This document shows positions 763 through 28,478 of a DNA stretch of 64,000 nt, in pieces. The stretch is from Puniceibacterium sediminis (GTDB lineage: Bacteria > Pseudomonadota > Alphaproteobacteria > Rhodobacterales > Rhodobacteraceae): NCBI RefSeq assembly GCF_900188035.1, contig NZ_FZNN01000012.1:1-64000 (forward strand). Direction: 5' to 3'. How positions within the stretch are numbered: the first letter of the stretch is position 1; each line of letters opens with the position of its first letter. Position numbers and translations under genes: made by a program. Under the pieces are notes generated by a model. That model was given only the letters and a program-made list of their open reading frames with translations. It did no database searches and was not told the DNA's origin.

Positions 763-3312
763 TCACCGTTTTATACTACCAGCCGCCTTGACGACTGCGG
801 CGAGCAGTTCTGCGCGTTGAACCGGTTTCATCAATCGAATATCTTCAGGCCTTAGTCCGTTTCCATGAACTGTCGCCTCGCTTGCATAACCAGACATGAA
901 AATGATCGGCAGGCTTGGCCAACGCTCTCTTAGCGCTTTGGCAAGCCCGGTACCCTGTAATTTCCCTGGCATAACGATATCGGTTAACAATAAATCAAAA
1001 GATGGGTTTGCCTCAAAAGCGGTAAAAGCCATGTCACCAGATACTGTCGCCGTCACGTGGTAGCCTGCAAGTTCCAAAATAGTCACTAGGGTTGCGCGAA
1101 CAGCATCTTCGTCTTCCGCAACAAGTATTTTCTTCCCACGACCTGACGCTTGATTGTCATCAAGCAAAGGTTTGACAGGCTCTTCCAATTCCGATTTCGA
1201 AACCGGAAAATATAATTTGAATGTCGTTCCCTCCCCAGTCTCGGTATAGACCTGGACGGTTCCAGCCGATTGCTTCATGAAACCAACGGTCATTGACAAG
1301 CCAAGGCCTGACCCGACCCCGGGCGGCTTCGTCGTAAAGAATGGCTCGAAAATAGAGCCAATGACGTCGGCCGCTATACCCGGTCCGTTGTCGCTAACTG
1401 CCAGCATGACATATCGGCCTGGGGCCATCTCTTCTTGTCGCATGTCTAGATAGGTTTCATCGATCCGGACATTAGCCGTCTCGATTGTCAATTTTCCGTG
1501 CCCATTCATCGCGTCACGCGCATTCAAAGCCAAATTCAACAGAGCACTTTCCAACGAGGAACGGTCTGCTTCGATCGGCCATAATCCAGCAAGGAGCGAC
1601 GTTTCGATCTCGACGCTTTCCGGCATCGCGCGGGCCATCCAGTTTTTAGCCTCACGAACAACATTGTTGAGATCAAGAACCACGGGTGTCAGAGGCGCTT
1701 GACGCGCAAAGGCCAACATATTTTTGGTTAGATCTGCTCCACGCAGTGTCGCCGAAATCGCCGCGTCGATCATGTCTTTTTGCGCCGAAGGTTTCTCATC
1801 GTCGCGAAGTAGTTCGAGATTTCCGAGGATCACAGCCAGCAGGTTGTTAAAGTCATGCGCCACGCCGCCAGTCAACTGACCTATGCTTTCGTTCTTCTGC
1901 GCTCTGCGTGATATTTCGCGTTCTTTTTCCATTTTTTGCTGCAATTGAACTTCGCGTGTTGCGTCCAAAACGATTGCTTTAACAAGGGTTCTACCGTCTT
2001 CAGTCGCGAAATCGCCGTGAAAGTCCAGCCAACGCGAATGCCCGTCGCGGCTCGTAATCATGTAGCGGTAATGGATCGGTGAAATGGTTTCGCTCGCTCG
2101 TTTCACGGCCTTCAGAAAAGGACCAAGATCTTTGGGGTCGTGCATTTGAGCAAGCAAGGAGGGATTGGCAAGAAGATCTTCGTCAGTATAGCCCCAAATA
2201 TCCACGCATTTGGGACTGATGTACATGAGTTTAGGTTTGTCCCATTCCGTTATGTCATAATCGACGAATGCGCCTGGCAGCTTTTCTGCGATCAACGCCA
2301 AACGCTCTCGTGAGTTTCGGGCTTGATGCTCTGCGTCACGGATGTCTGTCATGTCAGAATTTATACCCGTGACACGCTTGACACTTCCCTTTGCATCCAG
2401 CTCTGTCACCCATGTCGTTCGGATAAATTGAAGTGTTCCGTCTTTCCGAATTGCGCGGAAATCTGATTTGCCTCGAAGCTGCCCTTCCGTCCAAGCGTTT
2501 CGCATCTCTTCTCGTACGCGTTTTAAATCATCCGGGTGGAATAGCGGTTCCAACTCCGAATAGGGAACCATACCTGGTTCCCGGTTCAGGCCGAGCATCG
2601 CGATCATTCCCGCATCATAGTAAGGTCCAGGTTCGCCTACCTCCTGAACGAACAAACCGACCCCAGACGCGCGCATGGCCAAGTCCAGCCTCCTCGCCAT
2701 TTCGGCAGTTTGGTTGGTGTTATTTGCTGCGCGGATTGCGAAGTTCACGATCTGCCAGGTGACTAATATAGACAGAGCGCCACTGACGATGAAACCCAAC
2801 GCGATCGGGGCGAACGTCGCATAAGGGTTTCCAGATTCAATCGTCCCGGCAAGAAATAGCAATGGCAATATATGTAGCACTGAAAAACCGGCCACAAGAT
2901 AGCCAATCTCGGTCTTTGGTATATTCGGCCAATTCTGCAAAGGGCGGAGATAGCTAACGGCCAATCCAACGGCCGGAATGGCGAGGTTCATGAAGACGCC
3001 GATCATTGGCGCAGCCCCTCCGAACCATATCCTGTAAGCTGCCCCAGTAAGTCCAGCAATCAAAGCGCCTATTGGACCACCAAGATAACCCGCAAATATG
3101 AGCGGCCCAGATCTGGCATCAATCGGAGTCGTAAATGGCTCTATCAATATGTTACTCGAACCAAGTGAGACAACCGAAACCCCAAAAAATACGCCAATAA
3201 AAATCTGTTGTGTTCGTCTTCTGCTTTTGAGTCGATCATTGGTAAGGGTTACATAAATCAGCACACCCGCCAGCAACAACGACGTAAGGCTTTGCAATAG
3301 AAATGCGAACAC
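763..3312 (-). CDS. Hybrid histidine kinase with 5TM sensor, two PAS domains and receiver
   Basis: Membrane sensor kinase. The N-terminal ~190 residues hold about five to six hydrophobic helices resembling the 5TM-5TMR_LYT type. Two PAS/PAC units follow (about 200-320 and 330-455, the first with the 'GLNREPG..HPDD..' pattern). Then come a HisKA/HWE-like dimerisation helix 'GGVAHDFNNLL' with phospho-acceptor His486, a HATPase domain with 'LNLALNARDAM' and 'DNGPGI', and a C-terminal receiver with phospho-acceptor Asp778 in 'LLLTDIVMPG'. The open frame extends 56 codons further upstream, but that stretch is basic, low-complexity and runs into recombinase debris. I therefore chose the GTG at 3312, preceded by AAAGAGAG and followed at once by the first membrane helix. 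The 849-residue product is the likely native form, although a 5' truncation by past recombination cannot be excluded. No partner response regulator lies beside it. Confidence 0.8.
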   Translation of the reverse strand: MFAFLLQSLTSLLLAGVLIYVTLTNDRLKSRRRTQQIFIGVFFGVSVVSLGSSNILIEPFTTPIDARSGPLIFAGYLGGPIGALIAGLTGAAYRIWFGGAAPMIGVFMNLAIPAVGLAVSYLRPLQNWPNIPKTEIGYLVAGFSVLHILPLLFLAGTIESGNPYATFAPIALGFIVSGALSILVTWQIVNFAIRAANNTNQTAEMARRLDLAMRASGVGLFVQEVGEPGPYYDAGMIAMLGLNREPGMVPYSELEPLFHPDDLKRVREEMRNAWTEGQLRGKSDFRAIRKDGTLQFIRTTWVTELDAKGSVKRVTGINSDMTDIRDAEHQARNSRERLALIAEKLPGAFVDYDITEWDKPKLMYISPKCVDIWGYTDEDLLANPSLLAQMHDPKDLGPFLKAVKRASETISPIHYRYMITSRDGHSRWLDFHGDFATEDGRTLVKAIVLDATREVQLQQKMEKEREISRRAQKNESIGQLTGGVAHDFNNLLAVILGNLELLRDDEKPSAQKDMIDAAISATLRGADLTKNMLAFARQAPLTPVVLDLNNVVREAKNWMARAMPESVEIETSLLAGLWPIEADRSSLESALLNLALNARDAMNGHGKLTIETANVRIDETYLDMRQEEMAPGRYVMLAVSDNGPGIAADVIGSIFEPFFTTKPPGVGSGLGLSMTVGFMKQSAGTVQVYTETGEGTTFKLYFPVSKSELEEPVKPLLDDNQASGRGKKILVAEDEDAVRATLVTILELAGYHVTATVSGDMAFTAFEANPSFDLLLTDIVMPGKLQGTGLAKALRERWPSLPIIFMSGYASEATVHGNGLRPEDIRLMKPVQRAELLAAVVKAAGSIKR

Positions 3313-3567
3313 TATTTCTCTCTTTCTGCGACTTTGTGGCACGAACCTGGTGACGCACGTGCTTGCCCTTCTCCGGGATGATTTTATCCTACGGCCTCTG
3401 TGACAGGTATGCCAAGAGCAGCGTAGCGATTGAGCACAGCGATGCAGAGGTGATTTCTGCGGCCTGGAGATCACAGACACGTGCCATGAGGCTTTGGCCC
3501 ATGAGTGTCACGCAATGCATCTTAACGTCGACGCGGCTTCGGCCTTGGTATCCGGTCAGCTTTCGCC

Positions 3568-4849: not shown

Positions 4850-5032
4850 TCAGATTCTCTCGCCGATAAACTGCTGAGAAAATGCCTGAACGCAGGCGAG
4901 CCCGTTGCGTTCCCAAACAAGCTTGCCCTGAGCAGTACTGAAGGCACCCGTCCTGACGCAGGCCACTTTTTCTTGGTGACCCCCCGTCGCATTATGATTG
5001 ACGCCTTCCGGGATTCTAAACTGTGCGATCAT
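4850..5032 (-). CDS. Hypothetical small protein, 60 residues
   Basis: I do not recognise a family. The start at 5032 is supported by a near-perfect ribosome binding site, AGGAGG, seven bases before ATG. The product starts 'MIAQFRIPEGVNHNATGG' and ends 'ACVQAFSQQFIGERI'. It has no signal peptide, membrane helix or obvious metal motif; two cysteines are spread over the chain. The strong ribosome binding site is the main argument for a real gene, as the coding sequence itself is too short to judge. It may be cargo of the decayed element to its left. Confidence 0.35.
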   Translation of the reverse strand: MIAQFRIPEGVNHNATGGHQEKVACVRTGAFSTAQGKLVWERNGLACVQAFSQQFIGERI

Positions 5033-5201
5033 TTCCCATCCTCCTGTTTGATGACTCAATAATTGCATTATTTTTTGACCTCCTCACGCTTTCGGTCGGG
5101 TATTCGATGTATTCTTTCGTATAGCGCCCCCGCCTTTCACCACGGGAAACGCAAATAGAGAAAGATCGACAGCCTCTGAGTTCATACTTCCCACACCTCG
5201 A

Positions 5202-5915
5202 TCACCCGCTATGGCGGGGAAATATTTTCTTCATGTGCGTATCGAATTCATTCCAGGTGATAACGGCCCTATTTCCGGCGTGTCCGTGATAATAGGAGCG
5301 GCCGGTCGAAGTGGGAAAACCGGCCCAAATTCTTGCTAGGTTCTCCATGAACCGGTGGCGGCTGATCTGACCCGCCATAAAGCCGCTATACCCGGCATCT
5401 TCCAGCAGAATATCAGCGAGAAGATCCTGCACGTGGTCGGTGAATAGCGTGTCTCTGGTTAGCCCAAGTTCATGCACCAGACTTTTCAGGGTCGACGGAA
5501 TGAACTGATAACGCCCAATGGCATGGGGCTGACCAGGAGTAGCTGAAATCCATTGGTAAATTTCACCAATCGTCATTTGCGTGGGGCGCTTTCCGGGGCG
5601 GACCCTGGCCCCATTCTGGACCGCGTCATAACCGCTGCGCCCCGACTCGGCCCAACCGATAAGATGTTTGAGATGTGCGGAGGATCCGGCACCCGCACCA
5701 ATGGGAATATCCCGCCCGGGTTGACCCGAAGACTTCTTGATCATTGAGGAATTCAGATAGATCCGGCTCTGCGTTTCGGTCGTCGAAAGGGTGAATTCAA
5801 TCCCACCGCCTTTCATCGATCGAAAATTAGTAAGCGTGGCTGTTTCTGCCTGTGCATTCTCTGTTGCAAACACCGCAACCAGAGAAAGAGCGACAACCGT
5901 TCCCTTCAAATTCAT
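5202..5915 (-). CDS. Secreted lysozyme-fold (muramidase-like) protein
   Basis: Probable peptidoglycan-cleaving enzyme of the lysozyme-like superfamily, exported to the periplasm or outside. Start at 5915 is chosen over the upstream in-frame ATGs because GGAG lies seven bases before it and a standard signal peptide follows (hydrophobic 'VVALSLVAVFA', cleavage after 'AQA', residue ~23). The mature protein has a small beta-rich leader (25-60), then the catalytic domain: 'GWAESG' with likely catalytic Glu90, and the 'AIGRYQFIPSTLKSL' block that in phage muramidases lines the active site. Length (237 residues) fits a single-domain enzyme. No holin, spanin or phage structural gene is nearby, so it is probably not part of a prophage lysis cassette. 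It lies downstream of the DUF11 gene cluster, separated from it by a terminator, so any shared role is speculative. Confidence 0.65.
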   Translation of the reverse strand: MNLKGTVVALSLVAVFATENAQAETATLTNFRSMKGGGIEFTLSTTETQSRIYLNSSMIKKSSGQPGRDIPIGAGAGSSAHLKHLIGWAESGRSGYDAVQNGARVRPGKRPTQMTIGEIYQWISATPGQPHAIGRYQFIPSTLKSLVHELGLTRDTLFTDHVQDLLADILLEDAGYSGFMAGQISRHRFMENLARIWAGFPTSTGRSYYHGHAGNRAVITWNEFDTHMKKIFPRHSG

Positions 5916-6101
5916 TTTCGTCTCCATTTCACACATCCAGTGATGAGGAGATTTTGACATTTTCGATAATTCAAATCATTCGCGCAAAAGATAATGCGCG
6001 CGGCAAAAGCATAGGTGCCCCCGCGCTATGTATATTGCCGTGCCCCAAAGGGCGGCGGGTCAGGGCCATATCTCACCATATCGACCGACCGTGCCCGTCA
6101 T

Positions 6102-6163: not shown

Positions 6164-9100
6164 TCAGTTGCCGAGGAATCCGTCGAGCTGATCCCAGAGG
6201 GAATTGTCGATCAGCAGGTTGAAGCGGAAGTAGAAGCCTTCTTGGTAGAGCGCGCTTTGCCCCGCCAGCCGCCCGTCCGCCTTGTTGTAGCCAATGGCCA
6301 GAAGCGTGCCCTTGGTCGGCACAAACCCGAATTCGGCACCCAGTCCGCTGCTCGTATTACCGGCATCGTCCCACAGTTGCGCCACGTTGGCACCGATCTG
6401 GAAGCGGTTCTCGCCGAATTCATAGCTCAGACCCGCCTGTACCAACTGCGTGGTGGCGCTGGCAGAGGTGCCGCCGGAGACGTCGATCTTTTGATGCTGA
6501 CCAGCGTATTTGCCGTTCAAGCGCAGATCTGCATCGACCTCGTATGACGCATCAACCGACCACAGATGGCTTTCCGTCCGGTTGTGCTTTTCCTCCAGGC
6601 GATGCTCGTACCAGGCCAGAACTTCCAACCGTGGATCGCTTAGCGGGCGGTAGGCAACCCCGGCGCGGGTGCGCATGCGGCGGTGATCATTGCCATTGCG
6701 CTGGTCGACGGCAACCCGGGTGCGGCCCAACACAGTCAGATCGGGCGTGACCTTGCCCGCCAACCCAAGGCTGGCATAGTAGGTGTTGCCGGAGTTTTCG
6801 AAGGTCGTATCGAAATCCGCATCCCCTACCCAGTCGCCATCGCCTGATCCCCATTTCATGCCAACCGCTACACTGGTCAGTTCGGCTTCGTTGGCGTCCA
6901 TCATGCGCGAATGTTCGATGCCAAGGTCGAGCGTCGTCGTCTCGTTCAGCTTGAAGTGCGCGTTCAGGCCCTGGTGCAGAGTTGTATCGATTTCGCCCGC
7001 GCCCCGGGTCAGCTCGGTGCGTCCGCTAAGCCATTCGTTCAGCTCGAAGGTAAAGCCAAGCGTTGCGCGGGACATCACGACGTCATCGGCAAAATGCACC
7101 TCAACCTCGTTATAGACGCGCCAGCCCTGCTTGGGTTCACGGTAAAGGCCAAGTGTCAGCTCGGTCGGCGCTTCGCGACCACTCAGCGGCTGATGCAGCT
7201 CTGCCTCGATCACGGTGTCGGGCCGGTTCAGCGGAGTCCAATGGGCACCAAGGGTAAGAGACGTTTCCGCATCGGTTACATTCTGGCGACGGTCCTGCCG
7301 GTATTCGAACCCTATGTCGCCGCGCAGCTGCTTGCTGATCCGACGCGAATAAAGCGCCTCAACCGTCAGCCTGTCGGTATCGTTGATCCGGTCGCGCACC
7401 ATTTCTGCGCCAAGCGCGATGTCGCTTTTGCGGTCGATCTCGTAACCATAGCTCAACCGGACCTGAGTGGTGCCCGGACGGGCCAAACCGCCACGCGCCA
7501 GGAAGTTCTCGCCGGTGTGGATTGCCTCAAAGCTTAGCCACTGACTCTCTGTCTGCAACTCATAGGACAGCCGCGCGGCCCCATCGACTTCGCCACGCGA
7601 ATCCTCGGATCTGGCCAACTCTGCCTCCCAGATGCCCCCGACCTTGTCCTCGCGGCGGATGTATCCGGATTGCAGCCGCTCCCGGGCCGGGTTGCCGATG
7701 GGGGCATCGGCATGCACCACGCGGGCACCGATGGTCGTCCGCTCGCCCACGGCATAATTTGCTTCGCCACCATAGAGCCAGTACGTCTCGGCGCCCTCGG
7801 CCTCCACTTCGTAGGTCACGCGGATCGACACCGGATTGCCATCCGGGTCGAACTGCCGGATGGGGGTATCAAAGGTGATCGTGTCGCGAAAGAAGTCGAG
7901 GATGTAGTCAGTGCCCCGGCGCATGGGTGTCGAGGTCAGGATATCGCCCCCCTGCTCGTCGCGAACCAGGATTTCGACCCGCTCGGAACCCTGAACATAG
8001 CCGCCAAGGTCGAGGTCATAGGGACCGGAAATGCCGCGGCCGCGTATTTCTTGCACCATTTGTTCCTGCGCGGTTCGCGCGCCAAAGACCGTGACAGACA
8101 CCTTGTCGTTTTCCCAATGCGCTTTGGCACCGGTGGCGACGCGGCGCAGCCCGTCAAGCTTGAACGCGCTGGCCTCTGGTTCGATGGCGATATCGCCATA
8201 GAGGATGTAGGAACGGCCCTTTTCGACCTTTACGAACAGGTTTCCAGACGATTGCGCATCTTGACCGCGTTCGGAGTTGTCGCCGTAAACCGGGTAGTAT
8301 TCGTCGCCGCGAATGTCGCGGAACAGACGGTCTTCGGTGTCGCGGTCCGAACTATAGCGCAGGGTCAGCAGCGCGTCGCCACGGATCGCCCCCTTGAGGT
8401 AGACCTCGCCGCGAACACCCGTTGCGGTATCCTCGAACGAGCTGAAACGATCCTTGTCCAGCAACGCCCCATTGTTCTTGCCCAGTGCCACCGCTCCTTC
8501 GATGACGCCGATCAGGATCCGTTCGTCCAGATCCGGGGTAAAGGTGATTGTCGCCTCGGCGCTGCCAAAGTTTCCGGTCACGGTGATGCGGTCCGGCCCG
8601 GCAACCTGCGGCGGGATCAGGCCGAACGTGGCCTCGCCATTATCAAGGTAAGCCTGCACGCCCGGGGTGCCGGGGCGAATGTCTGTCACATCCCACAAGG
8701 CACTGCGCGCGTGCAGTGTCACCGTGCTCGAGGCCGGAACCGGCAGCCCGCGCGCATCCAGCACACGTACCACAACCGGCACCACAGAGACGGGCGAGGC
8801 TGAGGCCGTTTCGGGCAGGATGATCTCGAACCTGGCGGGTTTCCCGGGGGCGATCAGGGTGATTTCCTTGCGGACACGTTCGATGCCGAAACCGTCCTTG
8901 CCGACCAAGCTCAGGGTGTTCTTGCCCGCGCCCAGTTTCACGGCGATGTATTCCAGCGCCTGGACGTTGTTCTTTTCCCAGTTGGTGCGTTCACCCACCC
9001 GGTCAGAGCCAAGCTCGCGACCGTTCAGCATCAGCGCCAGCGTCAGGTCAGCCTTGCCCTTGACCCGGATATTCTGGGTTGAGCGCACAACCGTCTGACC

Positions 9101-17495: not shown

Positions 17496-17572
17496 CTTAT
17501 CCTCACTCGTTCGCTGTCCGGAACTACCATAAGGTCATCCCCAATATCGGATGGATAGTTAGGAGATACGAA

Positions 17573-18049
17573 ATGGCAGGCCAACGGTTATTCACGAAGA
17601 TCTTTGCGCTGATCTGCAGCGTGACATTTGCAACCGCCGCCAGTGCGCAGGATGTTGTCCTGAACGTGGCGGTGGGAGAGGAACTCCACCAGCTCAGCCT
17701 TGAAGACCTGCAGGCGCTTCCAGTTTCATCGTTCCAAACCACGACAATCTGGACAGAAGAGCCGCAGGCGTTCAAGGGCGTCTCGCTCAAAGCGCTGCTG
17801 GATTCGTTTGACGTCGTTGATGGTACGATAGAGGCGACGGCGATCAACGACTATTCAGTGACAATCCCCATGTCAGACGCCACCGCTGACGGCCCGATCA
17901 TCGCCTATCTTGCGAATGGTGAACCAATGTCGCGCCGCGGAAAGGGGCCGCTGTGGATCGTCTATCCTTATGATAGCGACCTGAAATATCAGACCGAGTC
18001 GGTTTATAGCAGGTCGATCTGGCAGCTCGATAGGCTTACAATCAAGTAA
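17573..18049 (+). CDS. Periplasmic molybdopterin-oxidoreductase-fold small protein
   Basis: 158 residues with a signal peptide (1-24, ending 'ATAASA'). The mature part resembles a stripped-down sulfite-oxidase/molybdopterin-binding domain: 'LEDLQALPVSSFQTTTIWT..PQAFKGVSLKALLDSF' and 'YSVTIPMSDAT..PIIAYLANGEPMSRRGKGPLWIVYPY'. The Cys that coordinates molybdenum in true sulfite oxidases is absent (no Cys in the mature chain), so catalysis is doubtful and ligand binding more likely. TAGGAG precedes the ATG. The gene is 21 bases before the hybrid kinase, whose first ~195 residues include a periplasmic segment. I infer that this protein is an accessory sensor or ligand-binding subunit of that kinase. 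Confidence 0.7.
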   Translation: MAGQRLFTKIFALICSVTFATAASAQDVVLNVAVGEELHQLSLEDLQALPVSSFQTTTIWTEEPQAFKGVSLKALLDSFDVVDGTIEATAINDYSVTIPMSDATADGPIIAYLANGEPMSRRGKGPLWIVYPYDSDLKYQTESVYSRSIWQLDRLTIK

Positions 18050-18070
18050 GCTCGTGCCAAGGGAGCATTG

Positions 18071-20629
18071 ATGAACGACAACAAGCAGGGTGGCCGGGAC
18101 CGCCCATGGGCCAGATACCTGTTGGTTCTGGCCCTCTTTGCCGGGATACTGATCGCGGGTTATATCGCGTTCAATGTGTGGAACAGGATCCGGGCGCTTG
18201 ATAGCGCGCAGAAGGATCACGCCGAATGGGTGTTTTCCCAGCTTGAAGTCGAATATCTGAAGCTTGACCGCGCCCTTGATGGCGCGCGCTCCGGGGACGC
18301 TGCGGATATCGAGAACCTGCGCAAACGCTTCGACATTTTCTACAGCCGCGCCGAGATCGCCGCGCGCGTGCAGAACATCGGCGATGCCACGCCCGAGATT
18401 GACCGCCTGCGCCGCCTGCTGGATGCGCAGACAGGATTGATTGATGATGACGACACCCGGCTTTTCAACGGGCTCGATGATCTGCAAAGCACTCTGCAAG
18501 AAATAGAAGATGTCCCCCGGCAGATTGCCCTGACCTCGATTTCAATCGCCGCAAAAGCCTCCGAGGCGGAACGCCATCAAATCGTCCGCCTGATGGAAAT
18601 GCTTTTTCTGATCGTCCTGATCGTCACAATTGCACTGATCATTGCGATCCTGCGGCTGTCGCGTCAGAAGATCATCCTGAACCGCACCTCCCAGGAAGCC
18701 GAAGAAAACCATCTGCGGCTGGCGACGACACTGCGCGCCTCTTTGGATGCGGTCGTGGTGATCGATGACACCGGGGTGATCCAGGATTTCAACGGCTCTG
18801 CCGAAGGCATCTTTGGCTTTACGCGTCAGGCCGCAATGGGACGCAACTTCATCGACCTTTTGATACCGCCGAATATGCGGGACGAACAACGCCGAAATCT
18901 TGGCAGGTTCCGCTCTACCGGCGAGATGCGGATTGCGGAGACCGGGCGCCAGGAAACTGAAATGGTCGATCAAGATGGCCGTGTCTTTCCTGTCGAATTG
19001 TCCGTATCGCTTGCCCGTTCCGCGGAGGGGCCGATTTTTGTCGCTTATATCCGCGACATCACGGACAAGCGGCAGAAGGAACAGGAGATTGTGCAGGCGC
19101 GCGACGAGGCACTTGCTGCCTACCGCGAAAAATCCCGATTTTTCGCCATGATGAGCCACGAGATGCGCACCCCGCTGAACGGTGTGCTCTCGGCGATCCA
19201 CCTTCTCGACGATGGGCGCCTCGATACCGAACAGCAAAAATTCCTGGATGCCGCGCTGACCTCCGGGGATATTTTGCTGGGCCATATCAACGACGTGCTT
19301 GCCATCGAACGCAGCGAGGCCGACGCGGACGACCAACAGCTGCAGCCCTGCGACATGGCTGCGCTGACATCCGGCCTGATCGGCACCATGGAGCCGCTGG
19401 CCAAGACGTCCAGCACCCGGCTCCACCTTGATCAGGGCGGGCTGAATGATCGGCCGATCATGACCGACCCCCGCGCGATTCAGCAGATTTTGGTGAACCT
19501 TCTCAGCAACGCGATCAAATTCAGCCCTGATGGCGACGTCACCCTGCGTGCTTTCTACCGACAGACCGGGGATGACGGCATGAGCTTGCACCTCGAGGTC
19601 ATCGACGATGGCCCCGGCATTTCCGAGAAGGACATCAATCGCATTTTCGAAGATTTTGTCTCACTCGATAGCCGCTACGAACGTCGCACGGGCGGCACCG
19701 GACTGGGCCTTGGGATTGTCCGCCGTCTGGTCCAGCGTCTTGGGGGCGACATCCAGTGCCAATCCGAAGTCGGCAGCGGCACGCGGTTTACTGTGCGTTT
19801 GCCGGTCGCAGAGGCCTCAATGTCAGCCATTCCCGCGCGTCCCTCCCCCCGCACGAACCAGACAAGCCAGTCCCCGCTGCACCTCCTGGTAGTCGATGAC
19901 AACGAAATCAACCGGGATCTTCTTGAGGCGATGCTCAGGCGGCTCGGGCACAGAGTCACGGTTGCCACAGGGGGCCAGCAGGCCGTCGATCTTGCCACGC
20001 AATCAAGGTTCGATGCCATTCTGATGGACATCTCGATGCCCGGCATGAACGGTGTTCAGGCGACGCAGGCCATATTGGCTGCCAACGGGCCAAACCGGTC
20101 GACCCCGGTCATTGCGGTCACCGCCCATGCGCTGCCCAACGAACGAGAAGAGTTCAAAGCCGTCGGCATGTCAGGATTTCTTCAGAAGCCGCTGGATAGC
20201 AAGGCGCTCAAATCCACGCTCGCCAGCCTGCGCCCCGGTGAGGGTGCTTCCCAGCCCTCCGTGATCTCCGAAACGCAAAGGGCAAATGACGCTGAGCGAC
20301 CCTTCCTGAACGAAACCCAGATGCTGGAACTGCTCGAACTCCTGGGTCGCGAGAAGCTGTCGGAGCGGATAACGACCCTTGCCCAGCGCGTCGATGCCGA
20401 ACTCCCCGCCCTGATGGATGCGCAGGCGGTGCGGGATCTGCAAACACGATCCCACGCCTTGGCGGGCATGTGCGGCATGTTCGGCGCTGAGCGCCTGCAT
20501 GACTTGCTCAGCGATATCGAAACCGCCTGCAAGGACGGTAATGCACAACGAGCGCACGATCTGGTCAAATCTGTACCGTCAACCTGGCATCACACGGATT
20601 CCGCCTTGCGCCAAAGAATTCTGCAATAG
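18071..20629 (+). CDS. Hybrid histidine kinase with PAS, receiver and Hpt domains
   Basis: 852 residues, inner membrane. Transmembrane helix 1 is near 14-36 and helix 2 near 177-197, enclosing a helical periplasmic sensor of about 140 residues. A PAS domain (about 215-335, 'DAVVVIDDTGVIQDFNGSAEGIFGF') precedes HisKA with phospho-acceptor His363 in 'MMSHEMRTPLNG', HATPase ('NLLSNAIKFSP', 'DDGPGI', 'GTGLGLGI'), a receiver with Asp653 in 'ILMDISMPGMNG', and a C-terminal Hpt domain with His795 in 'SHALAGMCGMFG'. It can thus run a full His-Asp-His phosphorelay and pass phosphate to the LuxR-type regulator at 16731. The start is the ATG at 18071 with GGGAG upstream; a TTG just before it is in frame but less likely. 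Co-transcribed with the periplasmic protein at 17573. Confidence 0.88.
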   Translation: MNDNKQGGRDRPWARYLLVLALFAGILIAGYIAFNVWNRIRALDSAQKDHAEWVFSQLEVEYLKLDRALDGARSGDAADIENLRKRFDIFYSRAEIAARVQNIGDATPEIDRLRRLLDAQTGLIDDDDTRLFNGLDDLQSTLQEIEDVPRQIALTSISIAAKASEAERHQIVRLMEMLFLIVLIVTIALIIAILRLSRQKIILNRTSQEAEENHLRLATTLRASLDAVVVIDDTGVIQDFNGSAEGIFGFTRQAAMGRNFIDLLIPPNMRDEQRRNLGRFRSTGEMRIAETGRQETEMVDQDGRVFPVELSVSLARSAEGPIFVAYIRDITDKRQKEQEIVQARDEALAAYREKSRFFAMMSHEMRTPLNGVLSAIHLLDDGRLDTEQQKFLDAALTSGDILLGHINDVLAIERSEADADDQQLQPCDMAALTSGLIGTMEPLAKTSSTRLHLDQGGLNDRPIMTDPRAIQQILVNLLSNAIKFSPDGDVTLRAFYRQTGDDGMSLHLEVIDDGPGISEKDINRIFEDFVSLDSRYERRTGGTGLGLGIVRRLVQRLGGDIQCQSEVGSGTRFTVRLPVAEASMSAIPARPSPRTNQTSQSPLHLLVVDDNEINRDLLEAMLRRLGHRVTVATGGQQAVDLATQSRFDAILMDISMPGMNGVQATQAILAANGPNRSTPVIAVTAHALPNEREEFKAVGMSGFLQKPLDSKALKSTLASLRPGEGASQPSVISETQRANDAERPFLNETQMLELLELLGREKLSERITTLAQRVDAELPALMDAQAVRDLQTRSHALAGMCGMFGAERLHDLLSDIETACKDGNAQRAHDLVKSVPSTWHHTDSALRQRILQ

Positions 20630-21238
20630 AACCATGATTGTGCCTGGGGCGCTCCCTGACAGATATCTGCCACCATGGCGCTCGGCCCGGGGCTGCCATA
20701 CATATCCATCCGCATAGGCATTTTATACCACCGCCCCCGCGCGTTCGACGCAGGGTTGGCCTAAGGTGGTGACACTTCCCTCGTAAACTGGATGTCAGAA
20801 CCAACAGAAACAGAACGGCTCCACGCCCGTTCAGCAGCGGCACTATGCCCAAGTGGCCGCACGTTTCTCATCACTCACGGATGTTGTTTTCTGACCGGCC
20901 GCTCCTCTTCTTCTCCTCCGGGGAGCGGCCCTTTTTTTCCAATCAAATATTCCTCCACGACCCGGCCCGCAGGCGCATCGCGTCCGCCCTTGGCCGCCAA
21001 AACCGCGGGTCCCGTCACTGTCGCCACAAACTACCCCAAAGCATAGCGGCCTATACGCGGCGACATTCCAACTGCCCGTCCGCACCTTCGCGTACACCCC
21101 GGCAAACGGCGACAATGGGCGGAATCGAAACTGGTCATGGCGACATCATTGGACTGGAGCGCCCCATGCGCGGGGATCCAGCCCGAAGTTCCCAAAACCG
21201 AAAAGACCAACCCAGTGTCAAACCAAAAGGTGGATGAA
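20630..21238. other. 600-base region before the giant exported protein; possible small RNA
   Basis: No convincing coding sequence. It holds one very strong rightward terminator at 20897-20938, about 270 bases after the kinase stop, so either the kinase mRNA has a long 3' tail or a separate short transcript ends there. A 12-bp palindrome ATAG-CGGC-CTAT lies at 21043-21054. The promoter of the downstream gene should lie between 20940 and 21230. Confidence 0.4.
20897..20938 (+). terminator. Strong rho-independent terminator with CU-rich loop
   Basis: GGCCGCTCC (20897-20905) pairs perfectly with GGAGCGGCC (20922-20930), followed by TTTTTTT at 20932-20938. The 16-base loop is almost pure pyrimidine and contains TCTCCTCC, complementary to a Shine-Dalgarno sequence. 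Confidence 0.85.
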
Positions 21239-24200
21239 GTGCTCAAGCCCGTGTCAAACCGATTTCTGCGTATGCTGTGCAGCGGCACAGCTGCGATTAC
21301 GGTACTGTCGTCACCTGCGCTGGCCGAAACCTGCTCGGTGTCTCCGACCTTTGTTAACTGGATCACCCCGGGGACTCTGGGCGGCCTGAACGTGGATCAA
21401 TCCGCGACCCTGCAATGGGGATCTGCCGCGACCGATATTTCTATTTCAGGGCCGCTGTTCATTTTCGGCGGCGAGACATCAATCACGAGGATTTCGGAAT
21501 ATCCCGATTCACGGGGTACCTATTCGCTGAATTTCGGGTCGCCCGTCGTGCACGATCTCAACATTTTTGTCGGGAATGTTGGACGAAACGGGTTTCAGCC
21601 GCTTGAATCCGGGATCGTCGGCGATTTCAACATGACGCTGTCAGGTGGCGGAACTGCCGAAAACCTGTTCGGAGCCGTCACACCGCTCGACAATCAGGGA
21701 TACTTCCAGATCTTTGGGTCAGACACGGAAGGCATCGCACAGACAGCCCTGACCGGCACTGGGGCCGACGGTCTGCCGCTGGATGGCAAGTTCTGGGTCC
21801 ATGATCCCAACCTTGTTCCTGGTGACATCAACAACGGCGGCGAAGATCAAGCTTACGGCATGATTGACCTCGCCTATACCGCGCCGACCGTGGTTTCGGG
21901 CGGGTCCGACACGATCACTCAGCTGACGTTGCGCCAGGTCGGTGTCGGTGTCGGCCCGACTGTGACTCTCGGGGTTCAGGCGCGCCTGCGGTCCTGCATC
22001 AACGCCGCTGATGACGACTTTTCCTCCGCCCCGATTGCCAGCGCCTCAGGCGGAAGCACCGGCAGCGTTCTAGGCGATGACCTCCTGAATGGCGGAGGCG
22101 TCGACACAACGCCACTGCTTGGCAACGTCGATCTGGCGGTGGTGTCCCTGCCCACGCCCGCGGTGGGGGCCATCAACCTCGCCACAGACACGGGCGAAAT
22201 CACCGTAGAGGCAGGCACCACGCCCGGCACCTATTTCGTCGAATACAGCCTGACGGACCGCACAACCGACGGCACGCCGACGAACACCGATACCGCCACA
22301 GCGACGGTGGTTGTCGGCGGAGCGGCCGCAGGTACAATTGTGGCCGTCAACGACGACTATACATCAACCCCCGTAAACGCCGCATTCGGAGGCAGCGCTG
22401 GCGAGGTCCTGACCAACGACACGGCGAATGGCATCCCTGCCCTGTTCCCTAACGTGACGCTTTCAGTCCTGACCCAAGCCGTTCCGGCGAGTCCCGGTGA
22501 CCCGGTCCCCACCCTCGTGACGTCCGGCATCGATGCGGGGCGCGTCGTCGTGCCATCCGGAGTGCCCGCCGGAGTTTACACGATTGACTACCTGCTGTGT
22601 GATGCCGTCAACTCAGCCGATTGCGATACGGCCACCGTCACCATCGCAGTGTTCGAAGGCAACGGTCTGGATTTCGGTGATGCGCCGCTCAGCTATCTGA
22701 TCCCCACGCACGCCGTCGCTTCCACGCCGACCATATATCTTGGCGCGGTTCCTCCTGACACCGAACTGGTCGCGCAATCCGACGGTACAGCCACGGGCGA
22801 CGATATAGCCGACACCAACGACGAGGACGGCGTCACCTTTCCCATCCTGACACAAGGTCTGAGCGTGACGCTGGACGTCGAGGTGACCGGCAACGGGTAT
22901 CTTCAGGCTTGGCTGGATTTCGACGGCGACGGCCTTTTCGCGACCGCCCCGGTCGAACGGATCGCCACCGATCTGCGCGACGACGGAACCAGTGACGACA
23001 ATGTGGCCGGTGACGGCATAATTCAGATAAATATCACGGTGCCGGACGATGCGACCACCGATCTGACCTTTGCCCGCTTTCGCTATGGCAGTGAACAGGG
23101 TCTTGGCACCACCAGCTTTGCCGTCGATGGCGAGGTCGAGGATTATTCACTAATCATCGCCGCCGCAGACCTCGTCGACCGTGGTGACGCGCCCGCCAGC
23201 TATGGCGATCCGCGCCATGTGGTTGTGCCGCAGATCTACCTTGGCAGCGCGCTGCCCGACACAGAGACCTCTACAAGATTCTCGACGGATGCCGATGGCG
23301 ATGATCTGTCAGGCAGCGACGATGAAGACGCGACAACCTTTCCCCAGCTTGTCGCGGGCACCACCGTCCCGCTGACCGTCCAGACCCACGAGACGCTGAG
23401 CGTTCAGTTCGACCTGGGCCTGCCGGTGCTGGTGCCGGGCATCACCAACCTGCAACTCTGGATCGACTTTGACCAGAACGGTGTGTTCGATACCTCCGAA
23501 CAGGTGGCCGTCGATTACCGCGATGGCGGGACCGGCGACACCGATGGCACCTTTAACAATCAGATCAGCCTGAACATTCCCGTGCCGACGGATATCGGCA
23601 ACGGCACCACCTATGCCCGCCTGCGCTGGTCCACCACCAGCGGCATCGCCGCCGATCCGTTCGACGGGCTGAACATGGATGGTGAGGTCGAGGATTACCT
23701 GGTCACCCTGTCCAACCCCAATGGGCCGCTGACCTGTTCGTCGAACTTCTACATGGTCGCCACCGAACCTGCACAGAACCTGCCCGCGCTTGACGAACTG
23801 TCGATCAGCGAAAGCGGCGGCATCTACACGCTCAGCCACACGGACCTGCCGCCCGACTACACCGGCAACTACCTTGTCACCGGCTGGGGCTATAACGAGC
23901 TGGACGGCTATATCTATGGCGTCGGTCAGTCTCCGCGGAACCTCTACCAGATCAACGCGTCTGGTGCCGTGCGCGCCGTGGCCGACATCTCCGGGCTCAG
24001 CCTCGAATCTCCCGACACCAGTTCCGACATCCTGCCAAATGGCATCATGATCTACATGTCCGGCACCGATTTCAGCCGCTATCAGCTGCTCGATATCAGC
24101 GACCCGGCGAATCCGGTGGCGCTTGGGGTGCTGACAGCCGAAGCCGGTGCAGCCTATGGCCGGGATATGGCCTACAATCCGCGCGATGGGCTGATTTACT

Positions 24201-26407
24201 TCGTTGATACGTCGAACAACCTGCACTCATTCGATCCCAGGAACGGCGTGCCAGGGGCTATCACGGTCGATCCTGTGGCCAGCCTCCCCCTGCCCGCCGG
24301 AAAGTTCTCGATCGACATCGACTCGGTCTGGTTCGACGGCAGTGGTTTCATGTACGCCTTTGACAACCAGTCGCGGCAGGTCTTCGCGCTCGAGGTCGGC
24401 TCGGTCGGCGCCCGCCCTGCAAGTTACCAGTTCATCGAAGTGCTGGGCACCATCGACAACCTCACATATCAGGGCAACGATGGCGCCTCCTGCCGCGCGC
24501 CCGGTCCCTTTGTGTCGTCGATTTTTGCCGAGGGCGCGATTTCCGGCACGCTCTATCAGGATGCCGACGGATCCGACACGCGCGATACCGGGGAACCCGG
24601 CCTGCCCGCAGGCATCACTGTCACCCTTCATGACGACAACGGCACGCCCGCCGATCCCGCCGATGACACGCTGGCCTTAACAACGGAAACCACCGCTGAC
24701 GGCAGCTATGCCTTTGGCACGGTCGACTCCACCCTGACCTACCGGATCGAAGTGGACACGACCGATCCCGAGATCCCCGCAGGCCTGACCCTCTCAACCA
24801 CCAACCCACTGACTGGCGTTGCCGTCACTACCGGGGCCGAAACCACGGATCAGGATTTCGGTTTTGTAGCCGCCCCGACCGCCGCCGATCTGTCGCTGAG
24901 TAAAAGCGTCGTCAGCGCGGCAAACGGCCTGCCGGTCACGCAGGCCACAGCGGGCGAGGCACTGGATTTCATCCTGACTGTCACCAATGACGGGCCGGGC
25001 ACCCCGACAGGCGTGCAGGTCCGCGACCTGATGCCTCAGGGTTTTGCCTATGTCTCGGACGATGCCGGGGCTCAGGGTGACACCTACGACACCGGCACCG
25101 GTATCTGGGCGCTTGGCGATGTGCCCGCGGGCAGCAACCAGACCCTGACCATCCGCGTCACCATGCGCGATAGCGGAGAGCACACCAACACCGCCGAAAT
25201 CGTCGCCAGTTCGCTGCCCGACCCCGACAGCGACCCAGCCGTCGGTGCCCTGGTGGATGATCTCTCCGATGGGCTGGCCGATGATGACGAAGCCTCTGTC
25301 ACCCTGGCCTTCACAGGCACCGGCGCGACGCTCTCGGGCGTGGTGTTTCTGGACAATGGCGCCGGGGCCACAGCCTATGACGGCGTGCAGGAAGGGGCCG
25401 AAGCCGGCACCGATCGCGCCGTGGTCGCGGTCTATGACAGCGCCGGTGCACTGATCGGCTCGCCCGCCGTCGCCGCTGATGGCAGCTGGAGCCTGACGCT
25501 CCCCGATGGCTACACCGATGCGGTCACCGTCTCGGTCCTCCCCGACGCAGGGCTGCGCGCAGTGTCGGAAACCGCAGCGGCCCTGCCCGGCCTTGTGAAC
25601 ACCGATCCGCGCGACGGCAGCTTTACCTTCACCCCCGCCGCAGGTACCTCCTACAGCGACCTGAGCTTTGGCCTGATCGTCGAGGCGCGTTTGAACCTGG
25701 ACCAGCAGGCCGCGATCCGCCCCGGTCAGGTGGTGTCGCTGCGGCATGAATATGTCGCGGATGCCACGGGATCGGTCAGCTTTATCGTCGAAAACCAGAC
25801 CAGTGCGACCCCCGGTGCCTTCTCTACCGGGCTGTTCCTGGACACCGACTGCGACGGCACCGCCAACACGCCAATCACGGATCCGGTGGCGATTCAGGCC
25901 GCGACACTGCTGTGCATCGTCACGCGGGTCTCCGCATCCTCTGCAGTCAGTCCAGGGGCCTCTTACAGCTTTGATCTGGTCGCCGACACATCCTACGGCG
26001 CCTCGGGTCTGAACGAACAGGACCGCAACACCGATCGGGTGACCGTGGAATCATCGCAGGGCGCGCTGAAACTGACCAAGACGGTACGCAATGTCACGCA
26101 GGGATCAGCCGAAGGTGTCGCCAACGCCGCCGCGGCCGGTGATGTGCTGGAGTACCGTATCTACGTGCAAAATGCAGGCACCCTGCCCTCCTCGGATATC
26201 ATCATCTATGACAGAACACCGCCCTACACAGTTCTTGCCAACGCGGTGCCCAGCCCGGTTGACCTTGGTGGCGGCGTCACCTGCATCAGTTCGCTACCGG
26301 GTACGGACAGCTCTGGGTATGCGGGCGATCTGCGGTGGAATTGCACAGGCAGCTATCAGCCGGGCGCGGATGGATCTGTGACCTTCCAGATCAGGATTTC
26401 CCCGTGA
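21239..26407 (+). CDS. Giant exported surface protein with GEVED, SdrD-B and DUF11 modules
   Basis: 1722 residues. The frame is open upstream to 21137, but GTG 21239 has AAGGTGG before it and gives a normal 29-residue signal peptide ending 'SSPALA', so I chose it. Modules in order: an N-terminal beta domain (30-260); two Ig-like repeats ('DDDFSSAPIASASGGSTGSVLGDD', 'NDDYTSTPVNAAFGGSAGEVLTND'); two GEVED domains (about 478-640 and 645-825, each opening '..GDAP.SY' and closing 'DGEVEDY'); a propeller-like segment (830-1095); SdrD-B (1100-1210); DUF11 (1215-1350); a second SdrD-B; and a C-terminal DUF11 domain with cysteines ending 'VTFQIRISP'. It is very poor in Lys and rich in Asp/Thr/Gly, typical of Ca-binding exoproteins. 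It has no LPXTG, PEP-CTERM or RTX tail, so its export and anchoring are unexplained. It is probably a member of the same surface system as the genes at 6164-15188. Confidence 0.78.
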   Translation: MLKPVSNRFLRMLCSGTAAITVLSSPALAETCSVSPTFVNWITPGTLGGLNVDQSATLQWGSAATDISISGPLFIFGGETSITRISEYPDSRGTYSLNFGSPVVHDLNIFVGNVGRNGFQPLESGIVGDFNMTLSGGGTAENLFGAVTPLDNQGYFQIFGSDTEGIAQTALTGTGADGLPLDGKFWVHDPNLVPGDINNGGEDQAYGMIDLAYTAPTVVSGGSDTITQLTLRQVGVGVGPTVTLGVQARLRSCINAADDDFSSAPIASASGGSTGSVLGDDLLNGGGVDTTPLLGNVDLAVVSLPTPAVGAINLATDTGEITVEAGTTPGTYFVEYSLTDRTTDGTPTNTDTATATVVVGGAAAGTIVAVNDDYTSTPVNAAFGGSAGEVLTNDTANGIPALFPNVTLSVLTQAVPASPGDPVPTLVTSGIDAGRVVVPSGVPAGVYTIDYLLCDAVNSADCDTATVTIAVFEGNGLDFGDAPLSYLIPTHAVASTPTIYLGAVPPDTELVAQSDGTATGDDIADTNDEDGVTFPILTQGLSVTLDVEVTGNGYLQAWLDFDGDGLFATAPVERIATDLRDDGTSDDNVAGDGIIQINITVPDDATTDLTFARFRYGSEQGLGTTSFAVDGEVEDYSLIIAAADLVDRGDAPASYGDPRHVVVPQIYLGSALPDTETSTRFSTDADGDDLSGSDDEDATTFPQLVAGTTVPLTVQTHETLSVQFDLGLPVLVPGITNLQLWIDFDQNGVFDTSEQVAVDYRDGGTGDTDGTFNNQISLNIPVPTDIGNGTTYARLRWSTTSGIAADPFDGLNMDGEVEDYLVTLSNPNGPLTCSSNFYMVATEPAQNLPALDELSISESGGIYTLSHTDLPPDYTGNYLVTGWGYNELDGYIYGVGQSPRNLYQINASGAVRAVADISGLSLESPDTSSDILPNGIMIYMSGTDFSRYQLLDISDPANPVALGVLTAEAGAAYGRDMAYNPRDGLIYFVDTSNNLHSFDPRNGVPGAITVDPVASLPLPAGKFSIDIDSVWFDGSGFMYAFDNQSRQVFALEVGSVGARPASYQFIEVLGTIDNLTYQGNDGASCRAPGPFVSSIFAEGAISGTLYQDADGSDTRDTGEPGLPAGITVTLHDDNGTPADPADDTLALTTETTADGSYAFGTVDSTLTYRIEVDTTDPEIPAGLTLSTTNPLTGVAVTTGAETTDQDFGFVAAPTAADLSLSKSVVSAANGLPVTQATAGEALDFILTVTNDGPGTPTGVQVRDLMPQGFAYVSDDAGAQGDTYDTGTGIWALGDVPAGSNQTLTIRVTMRDSGEHTNTAEIVASSLPDPDSDPAVGALVDDLSDGLADDDEASVTLAFTGTGATLSGVVFLDNGAGATAYDGVQEGAEAGTDRAVVAVYDSAGALIGSPAVAADGSWSLTLPDGYTDAVTVSVLPDAGLRAVSETAAALPGLVNTDPRDGSFTFTPAAGTSYSDLSFGLIVEARLNLDQQAAIRPGQVVSLRHEYVADATGSVSFIVENQTSATPGAFSTGLFLDTDCDGTANTPITDPVAIQAATLLCIVTRVSASSAVSPGASYSFDLVADTSYGASGLNEQDRNTDRVTVESSQGALKLTKTVRNVTQGSAEGVANAAAAGDVLEYRIYVQNAGTLPSSDIIIYDRTPPYTVLANAVPSPVDLGGGVTCISSLPGTDSSGYAGDLRWNCTGSYQPGADGSVTFQIRISP

Positions 26408-26807: not shown

Positions 26808-28478
26808 TTACCTGTTTGCACGCGCCAGCAGGCCAACCGCAAACAAGCCCACCAGGATCACCAAAATCGCCGGGGGGGCCGCGCCTCCGATGTTTTCAAG
26901 ACTGGCCTGTTCGTGCACCCGTGTCGCCAGCGTATCAAAGTTGAACGGACGCAGCAAAAGCGTCGCGGGCAGTTCCTTGACGCAGTCCACAAACACCAAA
27001 AGCAACGCCGAGGCGACCGAGGAGCGGATCAGCGGATAGTAGACCGCGCTCAGCGTCTGCCCCTGTGTGCGGCCCAGCGACCGCGCCGCAAGCGCGAGAT
27101 TCGGCGACACCCGGCCCATGGCCGCATCCGCCGCCCCCTGCGCGATTGCAAAGAACCGCACGCAGTAGGCCAGCACCAGCGCAAAGGCCGATCCGGTCAG
27201 CACAAGGCCGATGTCATAGCCGCTCACACGTTCGATAAAATCTGCCAGGGTGTGATCGATCCCCGCCAGAGGGATCAGGATGCCGATCCCCAGCACCGCC
27301 CCCGGCGCCGCATAGCCGATGGTCGTGACAGGCAGCAGCAACCGCGGGATCTGACGTCCCGACAGCCGCACGCCGTAGACCAGAAAAATCCCCCCCGCCA
27401 CCGTGATCAGCGCCGCGATCCCGCCCACCGTCAGCGTGTTGCGCATGGCCGCAATCAGCGCTGGATCGTTCCAGCGTGCGCCATTGTCCAGCACATGGCT
27501 CAGCAGCACCCCGACCGGCAGCGCAAAGCCAAACAGAAACGGCAGCGCGCAGATCACCATGGTCGCGATACCGGCGAACCCTGGCAACCGCCGACGCGGG
27601 ACCGGGCGATGACGCGACGACAGGTTAAAGAACCGCATCCGCCGACGGCTCGACTTTTCCAGCGTGACCAGCAGGATCACCAGTACCAGCACGACACAGG
27701 CAATCTGCGCCGCGCCGCCCGCATTGCCACCTTGCAGCCAGACGCTGAAGATACCCGTGGTCAGGGTCTGCACGGCAAAGTAGTCGACGGTGCCGAAATC
27801 GTTCACCGCTTCCATCATCACGATGGCAACACCTGCGGCAATCGCCGGACGGGCCAAAGGCAGGCCAACGCGATAGAACCGCCCCCATGCGCCTGCCCCC
27901 AGCGACTGGGCCACCTCTTCGGCGCTGCCGGACTGTTCACGGAACGCGGCCCGGGCCAGCAGATAGACATATGGGAAAAGCGATGCCGCCAACACCAGAA
28001 CCGCCGCCCCCATCGATCGGATCTCGGGGAACCAGTAGTCCCGCGCCGAGGACCAGCCAAAGACATCGCGCAGGGCGGTCTGCACCGGTCCGGCATATTC
28101 CAGAAAATCGACCAGGGCGTAGGCGCCCATGTAGCCGGGGATCGCCAGCGGCAAAAGCAGCAGCCATTCCAGCCAGCGCCGCCCCGGGAATTCATACCGG
28201 CAGATCATCCAGGCGGTACCGGTGCCGACCACCGCCGACAACAGCCCGACCAGGGACATCAGGATGGCCGTGGTTTTCACATAGCGCGGCAGGGTGGTTG
28301 AAATCAGGTGCGGCCAGATGTTGTCCGACGGGAACAGCGCGATCCAGACCACCGCAAGGATCGGCCCGACGACGATGGCGGCAATTACAATAGCGCCAAT
28401 CGACCAGGGGCTGGGGCAAAATCTGGCAAGACGCCGCAGCAACGTCGCCGGGCTGTCAGAGGTGTCGGTCACGGACAT
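26808..28478 (-). CDS. Fe(III)-type ABC transporter permease (two fused halves)
   Basis: 556-residue inner-membrane permease of the FbpB/AfuB family, made of two homologous halves with about twelve helices in total. The EAA-type loops are visible as 'EEVAQSLGAGAWGRFYRVGLPLARPAIAAG' in the first half and 'LALAARSLGRTQGQTLSAVYYPLIRSSVASA' in the second. Family members move ferric iron, or more rarely thiamine or phosphonate, with a periplasmic binding protein and an ATPase. Neither partner is encoded next to it here; the gene stands alone between tRNA-Thr and the gapR region. A 5' partner could lie elsewhere, or the permease could share an ATPase. The ribosome binding site is weak (GGAG twelve bases upstream). 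Confidence 0.85.
   Translation of the reverse strand: MSVTDTSDSPATLLRRLARFCPSPWSIGAIVIAAIVVGPILAVVWIALFPSDNIWPHLISTTLPRYVKTTAILMSLVGLLSAVVGTGTAWMICRYEFPGRRWLEWLLLLPLAIPGYMGAYALVDFLEYAGPVQTALRDVFGWSSARDYWFPEIRSMGAAVLVLAASLFPYVYLLARAAFREQSGSAEEVAQSLGAGAWGRFYRVGLPLARPAIAAGVAIVMMEAVNDFGTVDYFAVQTLTTGIFSVWLQGGNAGGAAQIACVVLVLVILLVTLEKSSRRRMRFFNLSSRHRPVPRRRLPGFAGIATMVICALPFLFGFALPVGVLLSHVLDNGARWNDPALIAAMRNTLTVGGIAALITVAGGIFLVYGVRLSGRQIPRLLLPVTTIGYAAPGAVLGIGILIPLAGIDHTLADFIERVSGYDIGLVLTGSAFALVLAYCVRFFAIAQGAADAAMGRVSPNLALAARSLGRTQGQTLSAVYYPLIRSSVASALLLVFVDCVKELPATLLLRPFNFDTLATRVHEQASLENIGGAAPPAILVILVGLFAVGLLARANR

Follow-up and report, generated by a model that had tools for sequence, protein, structure and literature searches.

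A predicted giant outer-membrane barrel and its operon in Puniceibacterium sediminis suggest a regulated export and display system for DUF11/GEVED fibrillar adhesins

The locus lies in a window of 64,000 nt of Puniceibacterium sediminis DNA (the whole stretch that was analysed), and the four exported open reading frames on which the original prediction was built are all present there. Three lie on the reverse strand: the gene for a 170-aa protein (P170; 14676–15188), which is the first of an operon and encodes approximately one copy of a C-terminal domain; that for an 879-aa DUF11 protein (11977–14616); and that for a predicted outer-membrane protein of 1907 aa, with a signal peptide and a C-terminal giant barrel (6164–11887). 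The fourth, on the forward strand (21137–26407), encodes a GEVED/DUF11 protein resembling fibrillar adhesins, of 1756 aa from the first ATG and 1722 aa from a later start. The modules first assigned to these proteins were DUF11, SdrD-B and GEVED. Pfam confirmed DUF11 in the 879-, 1907- and 1756-aa proteins, SdrD_B above cut-off in the 1907-aa protein and GEVED in the 1756-aa protein (E = 3.5e-23), while SdrD_B fell below cut-off in the last and DUF11 was marginal in P170. DUF11 is confined to this locus in the P. sediminis genome.

Downstream of the barrel gene, and conserved in that position, is a gene for an exported endolysin/lysozyme-like muralytic enzyme of 252 aa (5202–5960, reverse strand; E105, HAIGRYQF motif). 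Its identity rests on a match to the phrog_90 endolysin family in PHROGs (E = 9.4e-15), as its profile gave no match in the PDB. A gene for a 60-aa protein (4850–5032, reverse strand) follows the endolysin-like gene, and several relatives have kept it there. Together with a shared C-terminal module and four palindromes, described below, these genes make the system larger than first read. RR327, a 327-aa receiver protein (15646–16629, forward strand), had been taken for a degenerate-GGDEF response regulator; no GGDEF was detectable by family searches, and this assignment was rejected. It is also not a conserved part of the locus, receiver homology being present at only one other class A locus (L047), so that we discarded it as a component and place it probably outside the system. 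At the edges, a CckA-like PAS hybrid kinase gene (763–3480) adjoins the locus and is not conserved with it, and an unrelated ABC transporter permease gene of the molybdate/sulfate/phosphonate type (26808–28478) flanks the GEVED gene.

Gene-order comparison identified the 170, 879, 1907 and endolysin-like genes as the conserved unit inside the locus. This DUF11 operon is present in 13 of 397 family genomes; in Rhodobacteraceae the order 170-879-1907 is kept, with the endolysin gene mostly next. The recurrence of 170-879-1907 in Rhodobacterales and, in diverged form, in beta- and gammaproteobacteria indicates that the arrangement is not due to chance. The 879- and 1907-type genes also recur with a large protein bearing the C-terminal module in beta/gammaproteobacteria and Aquificota, and four-part sets reach Thermovibrio (L085). 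Within Desulfurobacteriaceae (Aquificota), L085 (1480–17238) and L086 each have a row made up of an 879-type gene, an N-part and a barrel; at L085, the gene for a 1515-aa C-terminal-module protein belongs to it as well.

The 1907-aa protein comprises an N-terminal domain common to the 879-aa protein, CarboxypepD_reg, DUF11, SdrD_B and Ig-like domains, and the barrel. The barrel domain (residues 1123–1907; 6167–8521, reverse strand) aligns over its full length with 49 relatives. The proposal that this protein carries its own outer-membrane barrel is supported by structure prediction, the check suggested for it: AF2 gave a model with a mean pLDDT of 82.2 and a pTM of 0.73, in which approximately eight predicted strands are followed by a small plug-like insert (residues ~1303–1339) and 32 more. 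The figure of ~40 strands was counted from predicted secondary structure only, and closure is presumed. No family in Pfam or NCBIfam covers the barrel, scattered OMP families matching weakly. Foldseek returned no close fold from the PDB: LptD, MtrB-type proteins, TonB receptors, SlpA and SprA all gave a TM-score to the query below 0.3, with the best query coverage for Deinococcus SlpA (TMq 0.28), and a fold search against viral proteins yielded nothing useful.

With the motif YP[VT]YGD[DN]S, at least 586 related loci were found in Proteobacteria, Omnitrophota, Aquificota and other groups, and the barrel family shows two architectures. In the fused type (~1900 aa, as here) everything is on one chain; in the split type, a DUF11 giant with its own export is followed by the barrel protein as a separate polypeptide. 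An OmpA domain stands before the barrel in 10 of 20 split relatives and SPOR domains in others; as these domains bind peptidoglycan, the pre-barrel side is placed in the periplasm. Split-type barrels occur in ~40 of the 397 genomes and lack the C-terminal module, so the family must have a role independent of it. Split-type systems, for which there is no named family, are widespread in Burkholderiales, Rhizobiales and other groups; at L087, L093, L103, L120 and further loci, a DUF11 giant of 1500–3000 aa overlaps or abuts the gene for an OmpA-domain giant barrel. Members of the barrel family may rank with the largest outer-membrane barrels made from a single chain.

The 879-aa and GEVED proteins end in a shared C-terminal module (11980–12753 and 25640–26404, respectively). 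Their C-termini align by hhalign over 233 columns up to the last residue (E = 2.3e-19) as a two-domain unit, the final domain of which is matched by P170, and all three proteins have a final β-strand at the C-terminus. When every candidate was scored in 30 genomes, the module turned up in 15/15 that carry the barrel operon and in 1/15 that lack it, that one being weak. Across the 397-genome family sample, where 10 candidates per genome were scored, it was found in 19 genomes: 13 with the 879-aa protein, two with diverged fused barrels (G239 and G414) and four others. Where the module occurs without the operon, the gene is broken (G310), lies at a contig end (G404) or gives a weak match (G022 and G435). 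The GEVED-type gene of G310 (L167, 7372–11191) consists of two overlapping ORFs in a genome with no detected barrel, and looks like a decayed orphan.

All 15 operon genomes also encode GEVED-type cargo, with one to three large GEVED/DUF11 proteins each that carry the shared tail. These genes are often distant from the operon, in unrelated neighbourhoods, so that a core machine is combined with cargo encoded at scattered sites. The module is predicted to fold as two Ig-like domains. A fold search returned generic Ig-like matches, with no specific structural relative and no T9SS CTD, and the module may therefore be a stalk terminus and not a signal.

The regulatory genes consist of a NarL/LuxR-type response regulator of 230 aa with receiver and GerE domains (16731–17423, reverse strand), a periplasmic molybdopterin-fold protein of 158 aa (PF00174; 17573–18049, forward strand) and a PAS-HisKA-HATPase-receiver-Hpt hybrid histidine kinase of 853 aa (18068–20629, forward strand); all three had been recognised in the original prediction, and Pfam agrees. 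The phosphorelay residues are intact in homologs, with H364 conserved in 31/31, D654 in 22/22 and H796 in 21/21 for the kinase, and D79 in 40/40 for the regulator. The mature part of the molybdopterin-fold protein contains no cysteine here or in 32 of 33 homologs. As the Mo-ligand cysteine is thus absent, the protein is probably a cofactor-free sensor partner of the kinase.

These three genes form a cassette of their own, often found where the operon is absent: its marker, the molybdopterin-fold protein, occurs in 218/397 family genomes versus 13/397 for the DUF11 operon. “Dedicated sensor” was therefore too strong a term for the cassette as a family, and the regulators do occur mostly without DUF11 genes in relatives, the pattern first named as counting against the proposal. 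The reverse link, however, is strong, since the cassette LuxR gene adjoins the operon in 11 of 13 carriers. In the LuxR tree, operon-linked regulators cluster (4 changes versus 11.7 expected on shuffles), and 15 of the DUF11-linked regulators form a clade with one other (support 100/98). No uniform target gene was found in the cassette-only neighbourhoods. At L128 (10686–13301) and L129 (13591–16185), where the DUF11 operon is absent, RTX-like calcium-binding repeat proteins adjoin the LuxR cassette and are possible other targets.

A palindrome of the form TATNC-N4-GNATA, a putative LuxR operator, occurs at four sites: TATTCTTTCGTATA (5110–5123) upstream of the 60-aa gene, TATACCTTGGAATA (15334–15347) 152 bp before P170, TATACCTTCGTATA (17471–17484) in the divergent promoter region of the LuxR and molybdopterin-fold genes, and TATCCATCCGCATA (20703–20716) between the kinase and GEVED genes. 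Four sites in the window compare with 0.17 expected (0/100 shuffles); genome-wide there are 26 in 4.64 Mb, four of them within 16 kb at this locus. Upstream of P170, the palindrome is found at ≤1 mismatch in 26/32 regions (2.7 expected), at a spacing of 151–156 bp in most relatives. Exact copies are present in 13/16 molybdopterin-gene regions (0.45 expected) and in 6/21 cargo promoters (0.74 expected). The same palindrome precedes cassettes in genomes without the operon, as would fit autoregulation. In the same-genus relative Puniceibacterium confluentis (G002) it is kept, the LuxR ortholog (89%) being on another contig. At the Neomegalonema loci it was not found at its usual place before P170, and no LuxR ortholog was found in the one such genome tested (G059). 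Palindrome placement and LuxR adjacency support coupling of operon and cassette; the palindrome is the best evidence for it, and suggests, from sequence, that the regulator binds there.

Several known systems offer points of comparison. Type IX secretion, which combines the SprA/Sov translocon with CTD-bearing cargo, has been described as specific to Bacteroidetes (PMC7463736). The logic of our locus appears to resemble it by analogy, with a very large single-chain outer-membrane barrel and Sec-exported, genome-scattered cargo of gliding or adhesion type sharing a C-terminal Ig-like module, but no homology was found in tests on SprA and the CTD family: a profile of 50 barrels did not find SprA in the PDB, the Foldseek match was weak (TMq 0.18), the C-terminal module had no match to the CTD family, and the barrel has ~40 predicted strands against 36 in SprA. 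Chaperone-usher systems likewise have an outer-membrane barrel with a plug-like insert, and autotransporters (type V) N-terminal repeats with a C-terminal outer-membrane barrel; their barrels, however, have 24 and 12 strands, respectively. Usher and chaperone families had no match among the ten proteins scanned, nor did an autotransporter family in Pfam match the 1907-aa protein. Family searches likewise found no PEP-CTERM or sortase sorting signal in the C-termini, as had been noted from the outset. A T11SS was considered as exporter and rejected; in PMC12282271, most of what reads as DUF11 is DUF1194, which is unrelated.

Among fibrillar adhesins, GEVED accompanies adhesive NR2 domains (CshA_NR2/GEVED), and in Proteobacteria the stalk is mostly built of DUF11 (PMC10952558). 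The 1756-aa protein has the signal peptide, GEVED domains and DUF11 stalk repeats reported for such proteobacterial adhesins (PMC10952558), features by which it qualifies as a putative fibrillar adhesin; unlike them, it has neither sortase motif nor OmpA anchor, and its tail is tied to the barrel operon. The phosphorelay residues H364-D654-H796-D79 are standard for NarL/FixJ response regulators with hybrid Hpt kinases. What differs is the pairing with a periplasmic molybdopterin-fold protein that, in contrast to sulfite-oxidase-fold molybdoenzymes, has no metal-ligand cysteine.

Taken together, we consider the most likely reading, at a probability of about 50%, to be that the locus encodes a regulated outer-membrane system for export or anchoring, and thus display, of DUF11/GEVED fibrillar adhesins through the giant barrel. 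The regulated surface or adhesin system originally proposed is upheld by gene order, cargo–barrel co-occurrence and the shared promoter palindromes, with the amendment that the 1907-aa protein probably acts as the machine instead of being one adhesin of four. That machine would consist of the giant barrel, its plug-like insert and the preceding periplasmic Ig-like, SdrD_B and DUF11 arms, for which the endolysin-like protein would open the murein locally. The 879- and 170-aa proteins would be accessory parts or form the base of the stalk. The GEVED/DUF11 protein and its counterparts at other sites in related genomes would be adhesins exported by Sec, and the C-terminal module that they have in common with the 879- and 170-aa proteins would be the part by which they are recognised or anchored. 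Regulation would begin with the cofactor-free molybdopterin-fold protein, acting with the Hpt hybrid kinase to phosphorylate the LuxR-type regulator; by binding the palindrome, this may in turn control the operon, the cassette to which it belongs, and the GEVED and 60-aa genes.

Next in rank, and unlikely, is an envelope scaffold in which the barrel and its DUF11/SdrD_B arms tether the outer membrane to peptidoglycan, the 879-aa, 170-aa and GEVED proteins being periplasmic or outer-membrane-associated struts and nothing being translocated. Periplasmic DUF11 proteins are known, such as OmcB of Chlamydia, and the OmpA or SPOR domains of the split relatives speak for such a tether, as does SlpA, the barrel with the best Foldseek coverage, which has a long periplasmic tether. 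Class A proteins, however, unlike the split relatives, have no OmpA domain, scattered and variable cargo of 1000–2000 aa is typical of surface adhesins, and GEVED is an adhesin-associated domain (PMC10952558).

A single chain that runs from a signal peptide through N-terminal repeats to a C-terminal barrel would also suit a protein that exports its own N-terminal DUF11 part in the manner of an autotransporter, the other DUF11 proteins being co-regulated biofilm proteins on unrelated routes. With peptidoglycan-binding domains directly before the barrel in split relatives, whose DUF11 chain is a separate, separately exported polypeptide, and with strict cargo–barrel co-occurrence and no autotransporter match, we regard this as the least probable of the readings. 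Improbable, too, is mere co-regulation, whereby a common Rhodobacteraceae cassette has come to lie next to a cluster of unrelated surface-protein genes, with the palindrome reflecting general stress or biofilm control. The many cassettes without the operon and the RTX-like neighbours at L128 and L129 are what it would lead one to expect, but adjacency in 11 of 13 operons, the conserved operator spacing and the LuxR clade specificity argue against it, and it leaves the shared C-terminal module and the cargo–barrel co-occurrence unexplained.

If adhesin export or anchoring by the barrel is correct, a wider, more tentative possibility arises: that of an undescribed secretion or display pathway outside Bacteroidota, in which a single-chain barrel of ~40 predicted strands, with relatives in Proteobacteria, Omnitrophota and Aquificota, serves to export or anchor adhesins that are encoded at scattered sites and share their C-terminal module. 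More than 580 loci encode members of the barrel family, for which there is neither a curated name nor a solved structure. For the question of how very large DUF11/GEVED adhesins reach the surface in Gram-negative bacteria other than Bacteroidota where known anchor or secretion genes are absent, the locus supplies a candidate for the machine, a C-terminal tag that can be recognised and a promoter element that is defined, with which the question is directly testable in cultured marine Rhodobacterales such as Sulfitobacter, Pacificibacter and Actibacterium.
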